Shown here: positions 7,021-16,728 of the stretch, piece after piece
How positions within the stretch are numbered: the stretch's first letter is position 1
How the letters are laid out: each line of letters opens with the position of its first letter
DNA from: Streptomyces sp. NBC_01244
Lineage (GTDB): Bacteria; Actinomycetota; Actinomycetes; Streptomycetales; Streptomycetaceae
Length of the DNA: 64,000 bases
Assembly: GCF_035987325.1 (NCBI RefSeq)
Contig: NZ_CP108488.1
Coordinates: forward strand, 7,440,001 to 7,504,000
Direction: 5' to 3'
The notes under the pieces: generated by a model
Told to the model about the DNA's origin: nothing
Databases searched by the model: none
The model's input: only the letters and a program-made list of their open reading frames with translations
Made by a program: the position numbers and the translations under genes

Positions 7021-7983
7021 TCACCTGGGCTCGTCGGCTCCCTCCTCTTCCCGCGGTTCACCCCGCAGCGCGGCGAGGTGGTCCGACAGGGTGCGGGGCG
7101 GGGTCCAGCCCTGGGTGTGGGCTCGGGTCAGGTCCAGGACCACGGGGTGGGCCAGCTGGTCCACCCCGTAGCGGCTGAGGGGCGGTTCGCCTGAGGACAG
7201 GGATTCCGAGATTCTTGCCGCGGCCCGGGCCAGGGCCGGTGGGAGGTGGCGTATGCGGGCGTGGACGCCGTGGGCGTGCAGGACATCGCGGACGGCCGCG
7301 TCACGCCGGTAGGGGCGGGCGTCGGCGATGTTGTACGCGCCGGGGGGCCAGGCGGGAGCCGCCAGGCAGGCCCCGGCCAGGTTTTCCACCGCCGTCAGGC
7401 TGAGCGGGACGTCCGGGCCCGGCAGGAAGAGGGTTCCGGCGCGGACCCGGGAGAGCAGCCGGGGCAGGAGCTGGGTGTCGCCGGGGCCGTACACCGCGCG
7501 CGGGCGCAGCACCACCGCGCCCGCGGCCAGGGCCAGGGCCTCGCCGGCGGCCTTCGTGCGGCCGTAGGCGTTCAGGTGACCCGTGCGCGGGTGGTCCTCG
7601 CGGACGAGCGTGCGGTCGCGGCGGGGGTCGTAGACGCTGGCGCTGCTGACCCAGACCACCGGGCGGGCGCCCGCCGCGTGCAGCAGCCGTGCGGTGCCGG
7701 TGACGTTGACCGCGTGCATGACGGCCTCCGCGGGGGAGCCGGGCGCCGGATCGCCGACGGCCGCCGCGCAGTGCACGACGAGGTCCGTGCCCGAGAGGTC
7801 CGGCTCCCCGAGGGACGCGTCCCAGAACCGGTGTTCCCCGAGCGGGCCAGGCCTGCGGCCCACGCACACCACCCGAGCCCCGGCCGCCGCCGCGGCGCGG
7901 GCGACGTGCCCCCCGCAGAAGCCGCTCGCGCCCGTGACGGCGATCCGGATGCCGGCCGCGTCAGGCCGCCTACGGGATGTCAC
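7021..7983 (-). CDS. NAD(P)-dependent extended SDR, OleD-like
   Basis: The 320-aa product is an extended short-chain dehydrogenase/epimerase. The Rossmann motif is TGASGFCGGH near residues 17-26, the Ser of the triad lies in WVSSAS, and the active-site Y-x-x-x-K is in NAYGRTKAAGE. The middle GPGDTQLLPRLLSR and the C-terminal EPPLSRYGVDQLAHP block resemble OleD, the reductase that turns a 2-alkyl-3-ketoacid into a 3-hydroxyacid in head-to-head condensation pathways; generic nucleotide-sugar epimerase is the alternative. The GTG at 7983 overlaps the P450 stop as GTGA. It is the last gene of the seven-gene operon, in company with an OleA-like ketosynthase and an OleC-like ligase, which supports the OleD reading. 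Confidence 0.75.
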   Translation of the reverse strand: MTSRRRPDAAGIRIAVTGASGFCGGHVARAAAAAGARVVCVGRRPGPLGEHRFWDASLGEPDLSGTDLVVHCAAAVGDPAPGSPAEAVMHAVNVTGTARLLHAAGARPVVWVSSASVYDPRRDRTLVREDHPRTGHLNAYGRTKAAGEALALAAGAVVLRPRAVYGPGDTQLLPRLLSRVRAGTLFLPGPDVPLSLTAVENLAGACLAAPAWPPGAYNIADARPYRRDAAVRDVLHAHGVHARIRHLPPALARAAARISESLSSGEPPLSRYGVDQLAHPVVLDLTRAHTQGWTPPRTLSDHLAALRGEPREEEGADEPR

Positions 7984-9200
7984 GCCGCCGCCCGTACGAC
8001 CAGCGAACGCCAGCCGGGCAGGGCGGCTCGGCGGTCCACCCGGGCCCGGGCCACGACGGGCCGGTGCGGAGCCAGGGCCGCCAGTACGCCGGCCAACTGC
8101 TCCCGCGCCAGGCGGGCTCCCGGGCAGGCGTGTGGCCCGGCGCCGAAGACCAGGCGGGCGACGCCGGGCTCGGCGGGGCCGCGCCCATCGGGGTCCCGCA
8201 GGTGGGCTCCGGCCGCGTGCCGGGCCACCAGGAGCAGCCGGTCCCCGGCACCGACCGGGCAGCCACCGACCGAGCCGCCGGCCGCGGCCACCCGGGGGAG
8301 GAGGGGCGAGGCTGCCGTCACGCGCAGCAGCTCGTCGGCCAGGGCGGGGCACAGGGCAGGGTCCGCCGCCTGGTCCCACAAACCCGCGTCGGCGCACCAG
8401 GCCACCGCCCGGGGCAGCGCCGCGACCGTGGTGTTGACGGCCGCGACCGCCAGCATCGCGGCCCGGTCGTCCGCCCCGGAACCCAGGAGCCCGCGGAGCC
8501 GCTCGGCGGCGCGGATCGCCGCGGCCCCGGCGCCGGGGCGGGGCGGGCCGGGGAGGTGACTGCGCACGGAGGCGGCCGCGGCCTCGGCGGCCGCCTCCGC
8601 GAGGGCGAGGGGGCCGGCGCAGGCGCCTTCCCCGCCCCGCCCCGCCCCGGCGCCGGGGCGCAGCAGGGCGTACACCACCGAGCCGGCCAGTTCCCGGGCC
8701 AGCGGCACCAGGTCCACCGTGCCCCCGAGCGGCAGCGGCGCGAGCCGCCGTAGGAGCAACGGATGCCATGCCGCGCGCAGTTCGCGGGTCCCGGCCGCGC
8801 CGAGCAGCTCGGTGAGCTCCCGCCGGGCCGTCCGGTGGCCGGAGCCCTCCTGGTCGAAGAGCACGCCCTCCACCCGGGCGGCCCGGGCCGCCCCGCCCGT
8901 GGTGCCGGGCGCGGTGCGGTCCAGCGGCAGCCGGGTCAGCGCCTCCCGGTAGGCCTCCGTGCCGTGGACGAGCAGCGTGCCGGGGCCGAGTCGGCGTACG
9001 GGCCGCCCGCGGGTGGCGGCGAGCAGCGCGAACAGGAGCGGGTGGGCGCGCAGGTAGACGCGCCGGTCCCGGCGGCGGGCCTTCGTGTGGGCTGCGGTGA
9101 GGGCCTTCGTGTGGGCCGCGGTGAGGGTCGTGGCACCGGCCGCCTCGTGGGTCCGGGCCGGGTTCCGGGCTTGGGTGCGGATCGTCGGGTCGGTGGTCAT
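7980..9200 (-). CDS. Cytochrome P450
   Basis: The 406-aa soluble P450 has the haem-binding motif FGAGPHACPGARLA, where the cysteine is the axial ligand, and the K-helix E-x-x-R in ADELLRVTAASP. The I-helix segment (MLAVAAVNTTVAALP) lacks the usual acidic-Thr pair, so oxygen activation may be atypical; P450s with altered I-helices include peroxygenase-like fatty-acid hydroxylases. The N terminus is a basic Ala/Thr-rich extension with a short repeat (TAAHTKA twice) rather than a membrane anchor. The ATG at 9200 overlaps the upstream glycosyltransferase stop as ATGA. In this operon it probably oxidises the acyl product or its chain; the substrate is unknown. Confidence 0.88.
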   Translation of the reverse strand: MTTDPTIRTQARNPARTHEAAGATTLTAAHTKALTAAHTKARRRDRRVYLRAHPLLFALLAATRGRPVRRLGPGTLLVHGTEAYREALTRLPLDRTAPGTTGGAARAARVEGVLFDQEGSGHRTARRELTELLGAAGTRELRAAWHPLLLRRLAPLPLGGTVDLVPLARELAGSVVYALLRPGAGAGRGGEGACAGPLALAEAAAEAAAASVRSHLPGPPRPGAGAAAIRAAERLRGLLGSGADDRAAMLAVAAVNTTVAALPRAVAWCADAGLWDQAADPALCPALADELLRVTAASPLLPRVAAAGGSVGGCPVGAGDRLLLVARHAAGAHLRDPDGRGPAEPGVARLVFGAGPHACPGARLAREQLAGVLAALAPHRPVVARARVDRRAALPGWRSLVVRAAA

Positions 9201-9955
9201 CGGACGTGTGCCTCCGCGGTGTCGGCGGGCCGGTAGCGCCGGTCCCAGTACCAGAGCAGGGTTCGGCGGGGTCCCCAACTCCGCAGCCTGCGCAAGCTGT
9301 TCTGCACCACCAGGTGCTCCGCGCGTACGATCCGCTGGCTGTGCTCGCGGGCCCGGTTCAGCAGGGCCACGTCCTCGGACCGCTCGTGCAGCGGCACGCG
9401 CAGGGCGCCGCCGCAGCGCAGGTAGAGTCCGGCGGTGATGCCCAGGTTGTGGCCGTGACACAGGACGTACGGGGTGCGGTAGCGGGGGTGGCGGTGGGCC
9501 CGCCGGTAGCGGCCGTAGAGCGAGGTGAGCCGGATCAGCGCCGGCAGCAGCCGGGCTTCGAGGAGGGTGGGCCGCTCGTCGCGGCGCGGCACGCTGCGGC
9601 CGCACAGCATCTCGGCGCCCCGCCCGAACTCCGCCTTCGCGACGGCAGTCCACTCCGGGGCGGGCAGACAGTCGGCGTCCGTGCGCAGCAGGTGGGTGGC
9701 GCCGGCGGCGATGGCGTACCGGAAGCCCGTGTCGGCGGCGGTCCCGGCGCCGGGCCGTTCCTCCGCGATCAGCTCGACGGGAAAGGGCGCCGAGCGCGCG
9801 AAGTCCCGTACGGCTTCCGCGGTCCGGTCGGTGGAGGCGTTGTCCACGACCGCGAGCGTGAATCCGGTGTCGTACTGGGCGGCGAGCGCGGCCAGGGTGG
9901 CACCGATGGCGGCCGCCTCGTTGTACGCGGGCACGACCACCCACAGGTTCGTCAA
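9197..9955 (-). CDS. Family 2 glycosyltransferase (second copy in operon)
   Basis: The 252-aa GT-A fold enzyme starts with VVVPAYNEAAAIG, the family-2 nucleotide-sugar entry motif; VVDNASTDRT follows, and TDADCLP supplies a D-x-D-like metal site near residue 100. No membrane segment is evident, so it is probably cytoplasmic. I chose the TTG at 9955 because AAGGAG lies 7 bases upstream and the codon overlaps the stop of the preceding gene as TTGA; the annotated-length alternative to 10024 would run into that gene. It is clearly a paralogue of the enzyme at 12518-13270: TGFRYAI, RTDADCLP and the LRRLR(S/A) motif are shared in order. It may transfer a sugar to the hydroxylated or carboxylated product of the operon. 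Confidence 0.82.
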   Translation of the reverse strand: MTNLWVVVPAYNEAAAIGATLAALAAQYDTGFTLAVVDNASTDRTAEAVRDFARSAPFPVELIAEERPGAGTAADTGFRYAIAAGATHLLRTDADCLPAPEWTAVAKAEFGRGAEMLCGRSVPRRDERPTLLEARLLPALIRLTSLYGRYRRAHRHPRYRTPYVLCHGHNLGITAGLYLRCGGALRVPLHERSEDVALLNRAREHSQRIVRAEHLVVQNSLRRLRSWGPRRTLLWYWDRRYRPADTAEAHVR

Positions 9956-10848
9956 CTCTTCGCTCCTTCGGGCTGGTTGGCGGTGGCGGCCCAGGACGCC
10001 GCGCGGAGCAGCACCCGGGCGCACAGGCTCCCCCAGACGAGCAGTCCGATCAGCGGCCCGGCCCCGCGGTAGAGGTCACCGTGCAGTTCGGCGGTCGCGG
10101 CGAGGTAGGGGCCCGCGGCGAGGGCGAGCAGCCGGCAGGCCAGCGCGGCCGCCAGCGCCGGGCCCGCGATGGCGGCAGCCCGGGGCCTGCCGGGGGCGCG
10201 ACGCGGGGCGAGCCGCAGGACGGCCGCGAACAGCGCCCACAGCGCGGGGACCGTCCAGCCCGGACCGCCCGCCGTCACCACGGCGGCGACGGCGGTGACC
10301 GCGAGACAGAGCACGGCCGCACCCGCGACGTCCCGCGCCGCGTCGCGCACGGGGTTTCCGCTGCCCGCGTTCTGCCCGCACATGGCCCGCACGCCCGTGC
10401 GCAGCGCCCGGGCCATCCGCACCACCGACCAGCAGAGGGCGAGGGCGAGCAGCGGCCGCCAGTGCGGGGCCGCGGTGGGCAGCCGCCCGGCCAGCGGGGC
10501 CGCGGCGGCGGGCAGCAGGGCCGCGGTCAGCCCGTCCACGACCCGCCCGGCACCGTCCCCACCCCCGTCCGCCCCGGATCGGCCCGCCAGCGAGGCGAGG
10601 AGTAGTACCGCCGGGGCCGTCCCGACGAGCAGGGCGTACGTGAGCGAGCCCGCGAGGGCGTCGCCGTTGGCCCGGGTGTAGCGGCGATGGGAGGCCATGA
10701 CCCGCTTCCGGGCGCCCATGACCCGCTTCCGGACGGCCATGACCCGCTTCCGGACGGCCGCGGCGCGGGCAGGGGCCCGCCACGCGGGTGCGGCCGTCAC
10801 GGGGGCCGCCGCCGCGCGCGGGAGGCCTTGGCCGGGGTGGCGGGTCAC
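9952..10848 (-). CDS. YihY/BrkB-like polytopic membrane protein
   Basis: The 298-aa product has a basic N terminus, then about six hydrophobic segments beginning with AGSLTYALLVGTAPAVLLLA (about residue 60), the segment typical of the YihY/BrkB family. The family's biochemical role is unsettled (envelope integrity or transport). Residues 32-52 or so consist of three near-identical VRKRVM-type repeats, encoded by a 21-bp tandem repeat at 10696-10758. The GTG at 10848 overlaps the upstream AMP-ligase stop as GTGA. Its place inside a biosynthetic operon suggests export or membrane handling of the product. Family assignment is by hydropathy pattern and the first membrane segment only. Confidence 0.7.
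   Translation of the reverse strand: MTRHPGQGLPRAAAAPVTAAPAWRAPARAAAVRKRVMAVRKRVMGARKRVMASHRRYTRANGDALAGSLTYALLVGTAPAVLLLASLAGRSGADGGGDGAGRVVDGLTAALLPAAAAPLAGRLPTAAPHWRPLLALALCWSVVRMARALRTGVRAMCGQNAGSGNPVRDAARDVAGAAVLCLAVTAVAAVVTAGGPGWTVPALWALFAAVLRLAPRRAPGRPRAAAIAGPALAAALACRLLALAAGPYLAATAELHGDLYRGAGPLIGLLVWGSLCARVLLRAASWAATANQPEGAKS
10696..10758 (-). repeat. Three tandem 21-bp repeats inside the YihY-like gene
   Basis: The 21-base unit CATGACCCGCTTCCGGacGGC (plus-strand reading) begins at 10696, 10717 and 10738. Because 21 is a multiple of three, copy-number change keeps the frame and alters only the number of basic VRKRVM-type heptads at the cytoplasmic N terminus. Confidence 0.9.
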
Positions 10849-12518
10849 GGTCGGGGCGCGCCGTTCCGTGCGGGGTTGGAGCCGGAGTCGGAGTTGGAGC
10901 CGGGCCCGGATGAGCCGGAGCCGGAGCCGGAGCCGGAGTCGGAGCCGGGCCCGGACCAGGGCCCGGGCCAGGACCCGGAGCCCAGCCGGTGGGCCGCCAG
11001 GGCCGCCGTTGCCGCGCGGTCCGGTTTGCGGGAGCGTCCCGACAGCGGGATCCGCGCGAACAGCAGGGCGTCGGGCACGGCCGTGCCCATGCGGCGCAGC
11101 GGGCCCGCCAGCGCGGACCGCAGCGCGGGCTCGGCGGCACCGTGGCAGGGCTGGACGACCGCCACGAGCCGCTCGTCGCCATAGCGGGGGCCGTGGCGGT
11201 CCCCGTGCTGGTCGCCCGCGTCCGCCGGAACCCCGACGAGCAGCGCCAGTTCCACCCCGGGCACGTGCAGGGCCGGTTCGTACAGGCCCGGGTAGATGTT
11301 CTCGGCCCGGCGCAGCACCATGTCCTTGGCCCTGCCCTCCAGCACGATCCGGCCCGCGCCGTCCAGCCGCCCCCGGTCGCCCGTACGCACCCACGGATCC
11401 GGGTCCTCGCCGAGGTAGCGGTGCCGGGCCCCGGGGCCGGTCAGCAGCAGTTCCCCGTCCGCGCCGCACTCGGCGCGCACACCGGGCAGCGGGGCGCCGA
11501 CCAGGTCGCCGGGGCCCTCGTGGGCGGCTTTCTCCCGGGACTCCACCGCGGCGGCCGGGAACAACTCGGTCAGCGCGTACACCCCCCAGGCCTCATCGGC
11601 CCCCGACTCCCGTACGCGTCCCAGCAGTTCGGCGCTCGCCGGAGCCGATCCGGTCCACACCCGGCCCCGGTGGCGGGCCCCCGCGCGCAGTGCGTCCCGC
11701 AGCTGCGGCGGGGTGAGGTAGGTGTCCCGCGGCTCCAGCCGGGCCAGTTGGCGGGCCAGCACCCGGGGCGAACGGGCCGGGAGGGCCACGGGAGCGCCGC
11801 GCACGAGGGCGGGGACCAGCACGAAGAAGGTGCCGCCGAGGACGGGCTCGGTAGCTGTGGAGGAAGCCCAAGTCGCCCCCGGACCAGGGGAGAACAGGGC
11901 CGAGACCGTCTCCATCCCGGCGGCCAGGCTCGCCCGTGTGTGCACCACCGCCCGGGGCCGCGAGGTGGTCCCGGAGGTGAACACGATGACGGCGTCGGCG
12001 TCCCCGCCGCCCGCGAACCGCGAGGGAACGCCGACCCGCGCCGCGCGCAGGTCCAGCGCGGGCGCGCATCCGGGCAGCCGCCGCCCGACCGTGGCCACCG
12101 GCGCGCCCAGCCCGGCCAGCTCCGGCAGTTCCAGCCCGGCCGCCCGCCGGGCCAGCGGCCGTGCCCACCCGGCCACCGCCTGCGCGGCGGCATCGGCCAG
12201 CACCAGCGCGGGCCGCGCCGAAGCCAGCCGGGCGCGCAGCACGTCGGGTCCGGCTCCCGGGTCGAGGACGGCCCCGCGCAGACCGAGTCGCCACAGCGCG
12301 AGCAGGACGGCGAGCGCGCGCGGCCCGGGGCGTACGGCGACCCCGACAGTGTCCCCGGCGCGCAGCCCGCGCGCGTACAGTGCGGCGGCGAACGCGTCGG
12401 CCAGCTCGGCGAGTTCCCCGCGGGTGGCGGCGGTCCGGGTGGCTCCCGTACGCGTGGCGGTCAGGACGGCGGGCCGCTCGGGGCGGGCGCGCAGCGCGTG
12501 GTCGAGGCGGTCCAGCAT
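10845..12518 (-). CDS. AMP-dependent acyl ligase, OleC-like
   Basis: The 557-aa ANL-superfamily enzyme carries a variant phosphate-binding loop FTSGTTSRPRAV (about residue 155-165), VYALTELFP (A5), RTGDRG (A7), GRAKDMVLRRAENIYP (A8) and PLSGRSRKPDR at the C terminus, where the catalytic lysine is expected. The YALTELFPAAAVESRE stretch and the YEPALHVPGVELALLVGV stretch resemble OleC, which makes beta-lactones from 3-hydroxyacids. An ordinary fatty acyl-CoA or acyl-AMP ligase is the alternative. The last 45 residues are a Ser/Gly/Pro/Asn-rich low-complexity tail that is unusual for the family. The ATG at 12518 shares a base with the upstream stop (TGATG). It sits between a glycosyltransferase and a membrane protein in the operon. 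Confidence 0.78.
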   Translation of the reverse strand: MLDRLDHALRARPERPAVLTATRTGATRTAATRGELAELADAFAAALYARGLRAGDTVGVAVRPGPRALAVLLALWRLGLRGAVLDPGAGPDVLRARLASARPALVLADAAAQAVAGWARPLARRAAGLELPELAGLGAPVATVGRRLPGCAPALDLRAARVGVPSRFAGGGDADAVIVFTSGTTSRPRAVVHTRASLAAGMETVSALFSPGPGATWASSTATEPVLGGTFFVLVPALVRGAPVALPARSPRVLARQLARLEPRDTYLTPPQLRDALRAGARHRGRVWTGSAPASAELLGRVRESGADEAWGVYALTELFPAAAVESREKAAHEGPGDLVGAPLPGVRAECGADGELLLTGPGARHRYLGEDPDPWVRTGDRGRLDGAGRIVLEGRAKDMVLRRAENIYPGLYEPALHVPGVELALLVGVPADAGDQHGDRHGPRYGDERLVAVVQPCHGAAEPALRSALAGPLRRMGTAVPDALLFARIPLSGRSRKPDRAATAALAAHRLGSGSWPGPWSGPGSDSGSGSGSGSSGPGSNSDSGSNPARNGAPRP

Positions 12519-13270
12519 CAGCGGGGGTCGTCCGTTCCGTGCGGGCCGCTGCCGCGGCCGAGGTACCAGCGGGCCGTACCGGCGATCCCGTACGCGCGCA
12601 GCCGGCGCGTGGAGTTCTCCACGACCATCGCCCGGCAGCGCGTGATCCGGTCGGTGTGGCGGCGCACCGCGTTGAGGAAGAGCCGGTCGGTGGGGGAGGG
12701 GCGCCGCGGCATCCCGCCGACGGCCAGGTACAGCTCGGCGGTGATGGCCATGTTGTTCCCGGCGTGCATCCGGTACGGGGCGCGGTAGCCGCGGCGGCGC
12801 GCGTGCTCCGGCCGCAGCCGGCCGAAGAGCCCGGCGAGCCGTACGAGGATCCCGAACCCGGCGCGGCCCAGCGGGCCGTGTTCGTCGCGGCGGGCCACGA
12901 TCCGCCCGCAGACCAGCCCGGGGCTGCGGACCAGCGCCGCCCGCGCCGCGCCCGTCCACCCCGGGTGGGGCAGGCAGTCGGCGTCGGTGCGGGCGAGCAG
13001 GGTCGCGCCGCGCCCGATCGCGTACCGGAAGCCGGTGTCGACGGCGGAGCCGACGCCCTTCTCCGGTTCATCGATGACCTCCACCGCGAAGGGTGCGCCC
13101 GCCGCGAACTCCCGCGCCACGGCGCCCGTCCGGTCGGCCGAGGCGTTGTCGACGACCAACAGGGTGAAATCCCGGTCCCGTTGGCGGGAGAGCGCGGCGA
13201 GGGTCCCCGCGATCCGGTCCTCCTCCTCGTGCGCGGGCACCACCACCCACAGCCGCCCGGCCGCGCTCAC
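12518..13270 (-). CDS. Family 2 glycosyltransferase (first copy in operon)
   Basis: The 250-aa GT2 enzyme opens with LWVVVPAHEEEDRIAG and has VVDNASADRT and the D-x-D-like site in RTDADCLPHPGW. It lacks membrane segments. The GTG at 13270 overlaps the ketosynthase stop as GTGA, and its own stop overlaps the ligase start. It is a diverged duplicate of the glycosyltransferase at 9197-9955, sharing motif order along its entire length, so the product may carry two sugars or the enzymes may use different acceptors. The sugar donor cannot be told from sequence. Confidence 0.84.
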   Translation of the reverse strand: MSAAGRLWVVVPAHEEEDRIAGTLAALSRQRDRDFTLLVVDNASADRTGAVAREFAAGAPFAVEVIDEPEKGVGSAVDTGFRYAIGRGATLLARTDADCLPHPGWTGAARAALVRSPGLVCGRIVARRDEHGPLGRAGFGILVRLAGLFGRLRPEHARRRGYRAPYRMHAGNNMAITAELYLAVGGMPRRPSPTDRLFLNAVRRHTDRITRCRAMVVENSTRRLRAYGIAGTARWYLGRGSGPHGTDDPR

Positions 13271-14295
13271 GACTTCTCCCAGATCATCGTCATGATGCTG
13301 ATCCCGCCGCCGAGCCCTACGAACAACACCCGTTCACCAGCCGTCAGTTCATCGAATATCCGGTCCAGCTGCACCCCGATCGTCGCGCTCGCGACATTGC
13401 CGAGCTCGGGCACGGTCACCACCAGTTTCCCGGCGGGCACCCCGGTCAGCTCGGCGAACCGCTCCAGATACGGCACCGTCACCTGGTGCACCAGCACCTT
13501 CGAGAAGTCGTCCCAGTCCATGCCCGTCCGGTGCAGGGTCCGGTCGATGACGGCCGTGCCCACCTTCTCGAAGACCCCGCGCAGTTCGTGCCCGTCGCCG
13601 CGGAAGTAGGTGTACGCGTCCCCGCGCGGGTGGCGCGAACCGCCGCCCGGGATGCCCCCGACCTCCCAGTGCTCTGAGTGGGTCTCGGTGTCCACGTCGA
13701 GGATCCCGCCGCGCTCCACGGGCTCGACGATCACGGCGGCCCCCGCGTCGCCGAAGGTGTAGCCGGCGAAGCCGGCGCGGAACTCGGCGAAGTCGGCGGG
13801 AGCCGTCCGTACGGCCCGGCTCGGGGTCTCCCCGGTGACCACCAGGGCCCGCCGGGCCCGGCCCGCGAGGATCATGGCGCGGGCGAGGTCGATGCCGTTG
13901 ACGAAGCTGTTGCACGCGTTGGTGACGTCCAGGGCATGGGCCTTCGTGCCGAGTTCGGCCTGGACGATGTGCGCGGTGGCGGGCTCGGCGACATCGCGGG
14001 AGGCGGAGGCGAAGAGCAACAGGTCGATGTCGGGGGGCCCGAGCCCGGCGGTGTCCAGTACCCGGCGGGCCGCCCCCACCGCGAGCGTGGACGCGTACAC
14101 CCCGTCGCCCGCGATCCGGCGGGTACGGATCCCGGTGGCCTGGGTCAACAGCCGCGGCGGTAGCGTGAGTCCGGCCCGGCCGGCGATCTCGCTCTGGAGC
14201 CGGTCGGAGGTGAGGACGTCCCCGGGCAGGATGCCGGCGACGGCGGTGATCCCGGCGCGGAGCCGCGGGCGCGGTACGGGTGGCTGATTCGGCAT
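13267..14295 (-). CDS. 3-oxoacyl-ACP synthase III family protein, OleA-like
   Basis: The 342-aa thiolase-fold enzyme has the complete Cys-His-Asn triad: Cys128 in DVTNACNSFVNG, His270 in VLVHQVTVPY and Asn300 in ELGNVASATIG; the C-terminal GLGGGIS glycine loop is also present. Such enzymes condense acyl thioesters by a non-decarboxylative (OleA) or decarboxylative (FabH) Claisen reaction. Position at the head of an operon with OleC- and OleD-like genes favours the OleA-type head-to-head reaction. I place the start at the ATG at 14295, close behind a GAAGG; ATGs at 14316 and 14343 are alternatives. The longer frame to 14478 encodes a repeat-derived RRVGGSAG stretch and is unlikely. No loading module or carrier protein is present. 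Confidence 0.82.
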   Translation of the reverse strand: MPNQPPVPRPRLRAGITAVAGILPGDVLTSDRLQSEIAGRAGLTLPPRLLTQATGIRTRRIAGDGVYASTLAVGAARRVLDTAGLGPPDIDLLLFASASRDVAEPATAHIVQAELGTKAHALDVTNACNSFVNGIDLARAMILAGRARRALVVTGETPSRAVRTAPADFAEFRAGFAGYTFGDAGAAVIVEPVERGGILDVDTETHSEHWEVGGIPGGGSRHPRGDAYTYFRGDGHELRGVFEKVGTAVIDRTLHRTGMDWDDFSKVLVHQVTVPYLERFAELTGVPAGKLVVTVPELGNVASATIGVQLDRIFDELTAGERVLFVGLGGGISIMTMIWEKS

Positions 14296-14664
14296 GCCTT
14301 CACGATGACGCGCCATCCGGTCCCGGTCCTGAGTACGGATGCTCATCCCGCCCGCCGGCCGGATGAGTACCCGCGACCGCCGACCCGCCGACCCGCCGAC
14401 CCGCCGGCCCGCCGACCCGCCGACCCGCCACACGGTGACCACGGCCGCGGAGGGACGCCCGCGAAGAGACGCCCGCAAAGAGATCGTGAAGAGATCGCGA
14501 AGCGATGTGGCAGGTGGGGCATGAACCGCCTGACGAGGTATTCCGTTCTCCAGGTGTACGGCCCACTGTCATGAAAGCAACGCCGACCGGTACCCCGGGG
14601 CCGCTGTTCTTGGGGCGCCCCTCGACACCCCCCGCACCCGTCTCACCCGCAGAGGTCGTTCTCC
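14296..14664. promoter_or_regulatory. Divergent promoter region with an 8-bp tandem repeat
   Basis: These 369 bases separate the seven-gene operon from the divergent phospholipase C gene and must hold promoters for both. A tandem array of the 8-mer CGACCCGC (about seven units, one with CGG) covers 14375-14429. The rest, including an A-rich patch at 14475-14500, shows no gene or clear promoter hexamers that I can defend. Confidence 0.6.
14375..14429. repeat. Tandem (CGACCCGC)n array
   Basis: Approximately seven consecutive 8-base units lie in the promoter region upstream of the OleA-like gene. Variation in unit number would change spacing between upstream sequences and the operon start without touching coding sequence. 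Confidence 0.9.
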
Positions 14665-16728
14665 ATGACTGAATTGAATCGGCGCAGGTTCCTGCAGATC
14701 GCCGGTGGCGCCGCCGCCGTCACGATGCTGAACGAGAGCATCGCCCGGGCCGCCGCGATCTCGCCCCAGGGCAGTACCGGCACCATCCAGGACATCGAGC
14801 ACATCGTCGTCCTCATGCAGGAGAACCGTTCCTTCGACCACTACTTCGGTGCGATGAAGGGGGTCCGCGGGTTCGGGGACCCGAGGCCGGTCATCCAGGA
14901 CAACGGCAAGTCCGTCTTCCACCAGTCCAACGGGACCAAGGACATCCTGCCCTTCAACCCGCAGATCAACGACCTGGGCATGCAGTTCCTGACGGGGCTG
15001 AACCACGACTGGGCCGGCGGCCACCAGGCGTACAACAACGGCAAGTACGACAAGTGGGTCCCCGCCAAGACGGCCACGACCATGGCGTACATGACCCGGA
15101 ACGACATCCCGTTCCACTACGCGCTCGCCGACGCCTTCACGGTGTGCGACGCCTACCACTGCTCCTTCATCGGTGCCACGGACCCCAACCGCTACTACAT
15201 GTGGACGGGTTACACGGGCAACGACGGCGTGGGCGGCGGCCCGGTCCTCGGCAACCAGGAAGCCGGCTACGGCTGGAAGACCTACCCCGAGCGCCTGGAG
15301 TCGGCCGGGGTGTCCTGGAAGGTCTACCAGGACATCGGCGACGGCCTGAACGCCGCCGGATCCTGGGGCTGGATCAACGACGCCTTCCGCGGCAACTACG
15401 GCGACAACTCGCTGCTGTACTTCAACAACTACCGGAGCGCCCAGCCCGGCAGCGCCCTGTACGAGAAGGCCCGTACGGGCACCAACGCCAAGGCCGGCGA
15501 GGGCTACTTCGACAAGCTGCGCGCGGACGTCGTGAACGGCACCCTCCCGAAGATCTCCTGGATAGCCGCCCCCGAGGCCTTCAGCGAGCACTCCAACTGG
15601 CCCACGAACTTCGGCGCCTGGTACATCTCGCAGGTCCTGGACTCGCTGACCGCGAACCCCGACGTGTGGGCGAAGACGGCCCTCTTCATCACCTACGACG
15701 AGAACGACGGCTTCTTCGACCACGTCGTCCCGCCGTACCCGCCCACGTCCTCCGCCTGGGGCCTGTCCACGGCGAGCGTCACCGGCGACCTCTACACCGG
15801 GGGCGTCTCCGGCTACGCCGCCGGCCCGTACGGCCTCGGCCCCCGCGTCCCGATGATCGTGGTCTCCCCGTGGAGCAAGGGCGGCTACGTCTGCTCCGAG
15901 ACCTTCGACCACACCTCGGTGATCCGCTTCATGGAGAAGCGCTTCGGTGTGCAGGAGCCCAACATCTCCCCGTGGCGCCGCGCGGTCTGCGGTGACCTGA
16001 CCTCGGCCTTCGACTTCACGCAGGCCGACGCCGCGCCCGCCGCCCTGCCGTCCACGGCCGCGTACGTACCGCCGGACAAGAACCGTCACTCGTCCTACAA
16101 CCCGACCCCGCCGGCCACGGGCACCCTGCCCAAGCAGGAAGCCGGCGCCAAGCCGACTCGCGCACTGGGCTACGCCCCGTACGTGGACGGCAAGGCCACG
16201 GTCTCCACGGGCAAGTTCACCCTGACCTTCTCCTCGGGTCCGACCCTCGGCGCCCACTTCCACAGCACCTCGGGCAACCGTACGGACGGCCCGTGGCCCT
16301 ACACGGTCGAGGCGGGCAAGACCCTGTCGGACACCTGGAGCACGAGCAGCTCCACCGGAAACCAGATCAACCTCTCGGTCTGGGGCCCGAACGGCTTCCT
16401 GCGCACCTGGAAGGGCCCGGCGAAGAAGGCCGGCCCCGAAGCCACGGCCCGCCACTCCGCCTCCACCGGCAACCTGGTGCTGTCCCTGACCAACGGGGGC
16501 ACGGCGGCCGTCAACCTGACCGTCACCAACGCTTACGGCGGCACGGCCCAGGTCGTGCGCGTCGCGGCGGGCGCCACCGTCGCGCACACCGTGACCCTGT
16601 CCGGCACGGCCCGCTGGTACGACGTCACCGTCGTCTCCGACGCGGACGCCACCTTCCTGCGCCGCTTCGCCGGCCACGTGGAAACGGGCGCGGCCGGAGT
16701 CTCGGACCCGGCGATCAAGACCGTCTGA
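14665..16728 (+). CDS. Tat-exported phospholipase C (phosphocholine-preferring type)
   Basis: The 687-aa enzyme hydrolyses phospholipids outside the cell. The N terminus has a twin-arginine signal, NRRRFLQIAGGAAAVTM, with cleavage probably near residue 30 (ARA). The catalytic domain starts with QDIEHIVVLMQENRSFDHYFG, the metal-binding signature of the bacterial phosphoesterase/PLC family, and continues to about residue 450 with FITYDENDGFFDHV and RVPMIVVSPWSKGG. Two repeated C-terminal beta domains of the bacterial PLC C-terminal type occupy about 490-680. Length matches the non-haemolytic PLC family. It is divergent from the OleA-like operon and convergent with the WD40 remnant. Such enzymes in this genus are often phosphate-regulated; I could not identify a PHO box. 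Confidence 0.93.
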   Translation: MTELNRRRFLQIAGGAAAVTMLNESIARAAAISPQGSTGTIQDIEHIVVLMQENRSFDHYFGAMKGVRGFGDPRPVIQDNGKSVFHQSNGTKDILPFNPQINDLGMQFLTGLNHDWAGGHQAYNNGKYDKWVPAKTATTMAYMTRNDIPFHYALADAFTVCDAYHCSFIGATDPNRYYMWTGYTGNDGVGGGPVLGNQEAGYGWKTYPERLESAGVSWKVYQDIGDGLNAAGSWGWINDAFRGNYGDNSLLYFNNYRSAQPGSALYEKARTGTNAKAGEGYFDKLRADVVNGTLPKISWIAAPEAFSEHSNWPTNFGAWYISQVLDSLTANPDVWAKTALFITYDENDGFFDHVVPPYPPTSSAWGLSTASVTGDLYTGGVSGYAAGPYGLGPRVPMIVVSPWSKGGYVCSETFDHTSVIRFMEKRFGVQEPNISPWRRAVCGDLTSAFDFTQADAAPAALPSTAAYVPPDKNRHSSYNPTPPATGTLPKQEAGAKPTRALGYAPYVDGKATVSTGKFTLTFSSGPTLGAHFHSTSGNRTDGPWPYTVEAGKTLSDTWSTSSSTGNQINLSVWGPNGFLRTWKGPAKKAGPEATARHSASTGNLVLSLTNGGTAAVNLTVTNAYGGTAQVVRVAAGATVAHTVTLSGTARWYDVTVVSDADATFLRRFAGHVETGAAGVSDPAIKTV

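Follow-up and report, generated by a model that had tools for sequence, protein, structure and literature searches.

A conserved actinomycete operon joining an OleA-type ketosynthase to a glycosyltransferase and a P450, with a tentatively proposed glycosylated lipid product

A seven-gene operon was analysed in a 64,000-nucleotide stretch of Streptomyces sp. NBC_01244 (assembly GCF_035987325.1, contig NZ_CP108488.1, here called the window), which lies at 7.44-7.50 Mb of contig 1 in a genome of 10.0 Mb. We found that five of its genes, encoding an OleA-type ketosynthase (KS), a glycosyltransferase (GTa), an adenylate-forming enzyme (LIG, the ligase), a cytochrome P450 and a short-chain dehydrogenase/reductase (SDR), form a cassette whose order is conserved among actinomycetes, and that the ligase belongs to a clade of its own. 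The product may be a head-to-head condensed, hydroxylated and glycosylated lipid with a beta-lactone ring, a proposal that, taken as a whole, we hold tentatively and at a little under even confidence. The features were as follows.

13267..14295, minus strand: KS, OleA-type ketosynthase (E104, C128, H270, N300), from Pfam, alignment and tree
12518..13270, minus strand: GTa, GT2 glycosyltransferase of GT-A fold, with D96, D98 and D195 in 73/73 sequences, from Pfam and fold model
10845..12518, minus strand: LIG, adenylate-forming enzyme in a separate clade, placed outside OleC by both tree and motif
9952..10848, minus strand: BrkB-type membrane protein, optional, from PF03631
9197..9955, minus strand: GTb, second GT2 glycosyltransferase, optional, 51% identical to GTa
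7980..9200, minus strand: P450 with EXXR and Cys ligand, and Asn in place of the usual I-helix acid in 59/63 sequences
7021..7983, minus strand: SDR, extended SDR reductase, with the Tyr and Lys of YxxxK in 62/62 sequences
14330..14345, minus strand: 16-bp palindrome (TGAGCATCCGTACTCA), conserved and proposed as an activator site, matching at 12/14 positions
14302..14307, minus strand: -10-like hexamer CATCGT, 6 nt 5' of the ATG, in AT-rich columns of 66 aligned regions; a leaderless promoter is proposed

The seven open reading frames (ORFs) in 7021-14295 were complete, and all six junctions were start/stop overlaps (GTGA at 13267-13270, TGATG at 12516-12520, GTGA at 10845-10848, TTGA at 9952-9955, ATGA at 9197-9200 and GTGA at 7980-7983), exactly as they had been given in an earlier note made from the sequence of this stretch. 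The Pfam families, in operon order, were KS III, GT2, AMP-binding, BrkB (PF03631), GT2, P450 and Epimerase, so that the one gene left nameless by the earlier note could be recognised as that of a BrkB-type membrane protein. The note had also stated that OleB was missing, and this agreed with the annotation within the cassette, OleB elsewhere in the genome not having been sought.

The gene set and the idea of its product are already known. Smith et al. 2020 (PMC7064751) described OleA, a glycosyltransferase, OleC, a P450 and OleD in Actinoplanes atraurantiacus, the same five core genes according to its gene list, and likewise proposed a hydroxylated, glycosylated beta-lactone, so the earlier claim that no described pathway has this gene set had to be withdrawn. 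Compared with the A. atraurantiacus set, the window operon has a second glycosyltransferase and the BrkB-type gene in addition, and the names OleC and OleD used in that paper for the ligase and the SDR were not supported by our trees and motifs. A KS of A. atraurantiacus in the protein collection was 66% identical to the window KS and is presumably the OleA assayed in print, for which hydrolysis of p-nitrophenyl hexanoate was reported, E. coli FabH showing none (PMC7064751). In the literature searched, we found no description of the spread of the cassette, the placement of its ligase, the enzyme swap or the palindrome reported below, and no paper naming a cassette product.

A search of named genomes with the KS yielded 119 relatives, and the best 80 loci were used for mapping all seven proteins. 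The order KS-GTa-LIG-P450-SDR was found in 63 of the 66 loci whose sequence continued for 5 kb or more past the KS. Among these 63 complete loci, 38 had just the five genes, 23 had GTb added and two had BrkB and GTb, giving GTb in 25/63 and BrkB in 2/63, the latter with its position unchanged. The three exceptions were a locus with pieces of KS and SDR (L020) and two loci with exchanged enzymes (L075 and L077), and the 14 loci on shorter contigs all started with KS-GTa, to the extent that the contig covered them. Overlapping junctions were counted at KS/GTa in 65/67 loci, GTa/LIG in 49/64, LIG/GTb in 23/24, GTb/P450 in 17/22, P450/SDR in 52/58 and LIG/P450 in 18/38, in gene calls from an in-house caller that prefers long starts and is thus biased toward overlap. 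GTb was patchy in its distribution, and patchiness is all that we claim for its history: a 53-row tree forces at least 8 changes, but the gene caller missed copies visible by tblastn (L091).

The hosts of the cassette included Streptomyces, Actinacidiphila, Yinghuangia, Micromonospora, Actinoplanes, Paractinoplanes, Spirilliplanes, Planosporangium, Virgisporangium and a metagenome-assembled genome of Streptosporangiaceae. The cassette KS occurred in 29 of 295 sampled Streptomyces genomes, counting that of the window (E 1e-80), which means that about one tenth of them have the operon, and in three genomes of a phylum-wide sample of 396, all of them Streptomyces (E 1e-60). The largest family of non-core genes around the cassette was present in only 11/80 loci; therefore the cassette itself is the unit, and flanking genes were dropped as a clue to its function. 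Its small size would make single-step expression or deletion feasible.

A PDB sequence search with the KS gave no separation of OleA, FabH and PqsD (105, 109 and 112 bits). The alignment placed SRDVAEPATA of the window opposite SRDYLEPSTA of X. campestris OleA, with PqsD and FabH having D and F, respectively, at the place of the Glu. A hallmark of OleA is the catalytic Glu117 followed by Pro, as given in PMC7064751. The corresponding E104-P105 pair was found in 71/71 cassette KS, together with C128 (71/71), H270 (71/71) and N300 (70/71). The OleA and LstA/LstB rows had Glu-Pro as well, and it was absent from all eight FabH-like KS of two genomes and from the L161, PqsD and FabH rows. In the KS tree, the cassette proteins formed one clade (74/98) that was sister (96/97) to three long-branch OleA encoded beside OleC and OleD, and they were excluded from the FabH clade (100/100); they also stood apart from the clade of X. 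campestris OleA, in a tree where the branching of the larger groups lacks support. The OleA-like nature of the KS, as first suggested in the earlier note, was thereby borne out, and a FabH-type KS was rejected by both tree and Glu-Pro, with one gene as a caution. This gene (L002:1501-2253 in the window genome), which was left out of the tree, encodes a KS with an internal TAG and EPATAH and NACN motifs, and adjoins another KS-like gene. The nearest sisters of the cassette KS belonged to loci L141, L142 and L143, KS-OleC-OleD sets which, judged by eye, lie beside a large polyketide synthase-like ORF and a possible OleB ORF.

The ligase gave a different picture from that expected of the OleC-like enzyme announced by the earlier note. 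In the tree, the cassette ligases formed their own clade (100/100) outside OleC, OleBC and LstC, and the OleC-type set separated at 100/98. The C-terminal motif RH[NA][AS]KI, which we derived from the OleC-type rows of this analysis and which is not a published definition, was found in 17/17 of these rows, 0/19 cassette rows and 0/14 ordinary ligases. A TGxxK-type P-loop lysine was present in 17/17 OleC-type and 14/14 ordinary rows and in 0/19 cassette rows, which have PRA instead, and the cassette was marked by GRSxKPD and ENIYPGLYEP (19/19 rows); its A8 region resembled that of ordinary acyl-CoA ligases. The OleC model ranked the cassette ligase 19th of 71 matches in the window genome. Its profile scores were 269 for OleC, 229 for OleBC, 238 for LstC, 274 for one ordinary set and 126-220 for the other ordinary sets; because 274 stands beside 269, a special closeness to OleC was not demonstrated. 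The fold model (pLDDT 76.0) found its best PDB matches in amide-bond synthetases (McbA), which did not discriminate the class either. A plain OleC was therefore rejected by tree and motif, profile and fold comparisons being indifferent. Two orphan ligase-SDR pairs (L153:3-2069 and L154:11804-13796), truncated by contig ends, had the ligases nearest to that of the cassette, with an A5 motif, YGTTEALPIA, nearer to OleC; no further pair was found in ten genomes of their genus, in which these two were the only ones.

For the proposed OleD-like character of the SDR, the evidence pointed both ways. OleD was the best NCBIfam model, at 84.6 bits and far below the cut-off of 580; the SDR was second of 21 matches to this model in the window genome and formed its own clade in the tree, unjoined to OleD.

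The model of GTa had a GT-A fold (pLDDT 87.9) that distantly matched mannosyl-, fucosyl- and various further transferases, and an attempt to read the sugar donor from it gave no answer. The P450 scored 20.6 bits in Pfam, just below the cut-off of 22.8, and had E290, R293 and C359, the EXXR motif and the Cys ligand, in 63/63 sequences.

Canonical oleABCD and oleBC sets, like the cassette, have an OleA-type KS, a reductase and an adenylating enzyme in one operon; the cassette differs in having neither OleB nor the OleC-type ligase motif, and in its added P450 and glycosyltransferase. The lipstatin (lst) and nocardiolactone (nlt) clusters also share an Ole-type KS, an adenylating enzyme and an SDR with the cassette. 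A locus of S. toxytricini (L165), lst-like by its gene order, differs from the cassette in two consecutive KS-like genes and a large ORF, taken from its position as a nonribosomal peptide synthetase (NRPS), and its ligase and SDR fell into clades other than those of the cassette. Strain JCM 4421 of this species carries both the cassette (L082) and the lipstatin-like set. The CysF beta-lactone synthetase of cystargolide biosynthesis (PMC11427300) acts on another substrate and is likened to the cassette ligase through the best fold matches of the latter, which are amide-bond synthetases (McbA) as well.

The two loci with exchanged enzymes (L075:9899-17848 and L077:9899-17845), from two Micromonospora species, kept the cassette KS (67%) and P450 (58%), and their adenylating enzyme and SDR grouped with LstC and LstD at 100/100; an ORF of about 1020 amino acids followed, A-T NRPS-like in L075. 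The cassette ligase was found in neither of the two genomes at E 1e-15, in a search that had no positive control. These two related loci suggest that the cassette ligase and SDR may have roles equivalent to those of LstC- and LstD-type enzymes. If the two enzyme pairs are functionally equivalent, that of the cassette would substitute for OleC and OleD. In lipstatin, an amino acid decorates the chain hydroxyl, and with equivalent pairs the sugar of the cassette would take its place. The loci themselves may possibly encode a lipstatin-like pathway with a P450.

In 81 regions, the 300 bp upstream of the KS were scanned for the site closest to TGAGTACNNGTACTCA. A match of at least 11/14 was found in 66/81 regions, against 0.48 expected from shuffles, with a consensus that was set after viewing the same regions and modelled on that of MacR, and among many close relatives, so that the counts are not independent events. 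Below the threshold were 15 regions: the two swap loci, seven regions from Actinoplanes or Paractinoplanes and six more. Beyond the 81, scores of 13 and 14 were reached by two loci of a different family, and the best scores upstream of the lst-like set of S. toxytricini, a similar set (G034) and one sister OleA were 9 or less. Outside the palindrome the aligned regions had little in common except a GGC that follows it and, about 24 bp further on, a hexamer rich in A and T, with an ATG within about 10 nt after the hexamer in the 17 rows displayed. We propose from this arrangement that the palindrome is positioned as an activator site at the -35 place of a leaderless promoter, from which transcription would start at or next to the ATG of the KS. 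A conserved palindrome would also offer a handle to turn the operon on. In the window, a short GGCGGGTC tandem repeat was seen 5' of the palindrome (14370-14430), and it was not present in a near relative (L019).

The window genome had five such sites, and the reversed control none. Besides that of the KS, and with the neighbouring genes labelled by eye, one preceded a lipoprotein-like gene by 35 bp, with a PP2C-like gene coming next; another preceded a small membrane-protein-like gene by about 90 bp; one lay near a Maf-like gene; and the fifth was a non-promoter site between two gene ends. Pfam gave no match for the lipoprotein-like and small membrane-protein-like genes. The window site fits TGAGTAC-NN-GTACTCA, the presumed operator consensus of MacR, at 12/14 positions. 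Reviews name membrane proteins and lipoproteins as MacR targets and print no operator sequence in the parts consulted.

Together, these results are compatible with a pathway in which the OleA-type KS would make a 2-alkyl-3-ketoacid by head-to-head joining of two acyl-CoA chains, and the SDR would reduce the ketone to a 2-alkyl-3-hydroxyacid. The ligase would adenylate the carboxylate, most probably to let the 3-hydroxyl form a beta-lactone ring, a non-OleC enzyme thus doing the job of OleC. The P450 would hydroxylate one chain and GTa would glycosylate that hydroxyl; speculatively, GTb might add a second sugar and BrkB might aid export. Head-to-head condensation by the KS is likely, a judgement lowered slightly because Glu-Pro also occurs in another KS of the window genome, and the product is probably both glycosylated and hydroxylated. 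The beta-lactone ring is a tentative element, for which we would put the case at not quite even. If the ligase does close it, this activity exists in a clade separate from OleC and LstC. Several observations weigh against the pathway. Neither ligase nor SDR groups with OleC or OleD in the trees, and the ligase lacks the RH[NA][AS]KI motif; Glu-Pro is not exclusive to Ole-type sets, as L002 has it; the P450 is without the usual I-helix acid; the fold of GTa gives no reading of the donor sugar; the swap loci have neither a GTa match nor the palindrome and possibly belong to another pathway; and purified Actinoplanes OleA, of which little was recovered, was unreactive with C8-C16 acyl-CoAs, according to PMC7064751.

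The position of the ligase outside OleC, the presence of GTa in 63/66 loci with room for it and the conserved palindrome, of which two of the four other copies stand 5' of lipoprotein-like and small membrane-protein-like genes, would also fit a pathway with no beta-lactone, in which the ligase activates a corynomycolic-like 2-alkyl-3-hydroxyacid for sugar transfer, giving an envelope glycolipid under a regulator of morphogenesis. We consider this rather unlikely, as the cassette has no acyltransferase by Pfam, the swap loci have an LstC-type enzyme and the fourth other palindrome lies between gene ends and not 5' of a gene. Should the ligase make no beta-lactone, actinomycetes would hold an undescribed condensed glycolipid; that many Streptomyces and Micromonosporaceae have a mycolic-acid-like (2-alkyl-3-hydroxy) envelope glycolipid, made by a portable operon with a MacR-type developmental operator and a non-OleC ligase family, is an unlikely conjecture. 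The ligase might instead act early, as the source of acyl-CoA or acyl-AMP for the KS; the product would then be a glycosylated, hydroxylated 3-hydroxyacid or ketone. The A8 region, similar to that of ordinary acyl-CoA ligases, and a profile score to one ordinary set equal to that of OleC are in keeping with such a supplier, but in the swap loci LstC and LstD types take the place of both ligase and SDR, and the search of those two genomes gave no cassette-type ligase at E 1e-15; we judge this role unlikely. A FabH-like KS that starts a small polyketide or serves in acyl transfer, with a superficial resemblance to Ole enzymes, is improbable: although PqsD and FabH chains equal OleA scores in the PDB search and the Glu-Pro KS L002 adjoins another KS-like gene, the eight FabH-like rows, L161, PqsD and FabH are without Glu-Pro and the FabH clade leaves the cassette out.

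A divergent gene for a phospholipase C-type phosphoesterase (14665-16728 of the window) adjoins the cassette.

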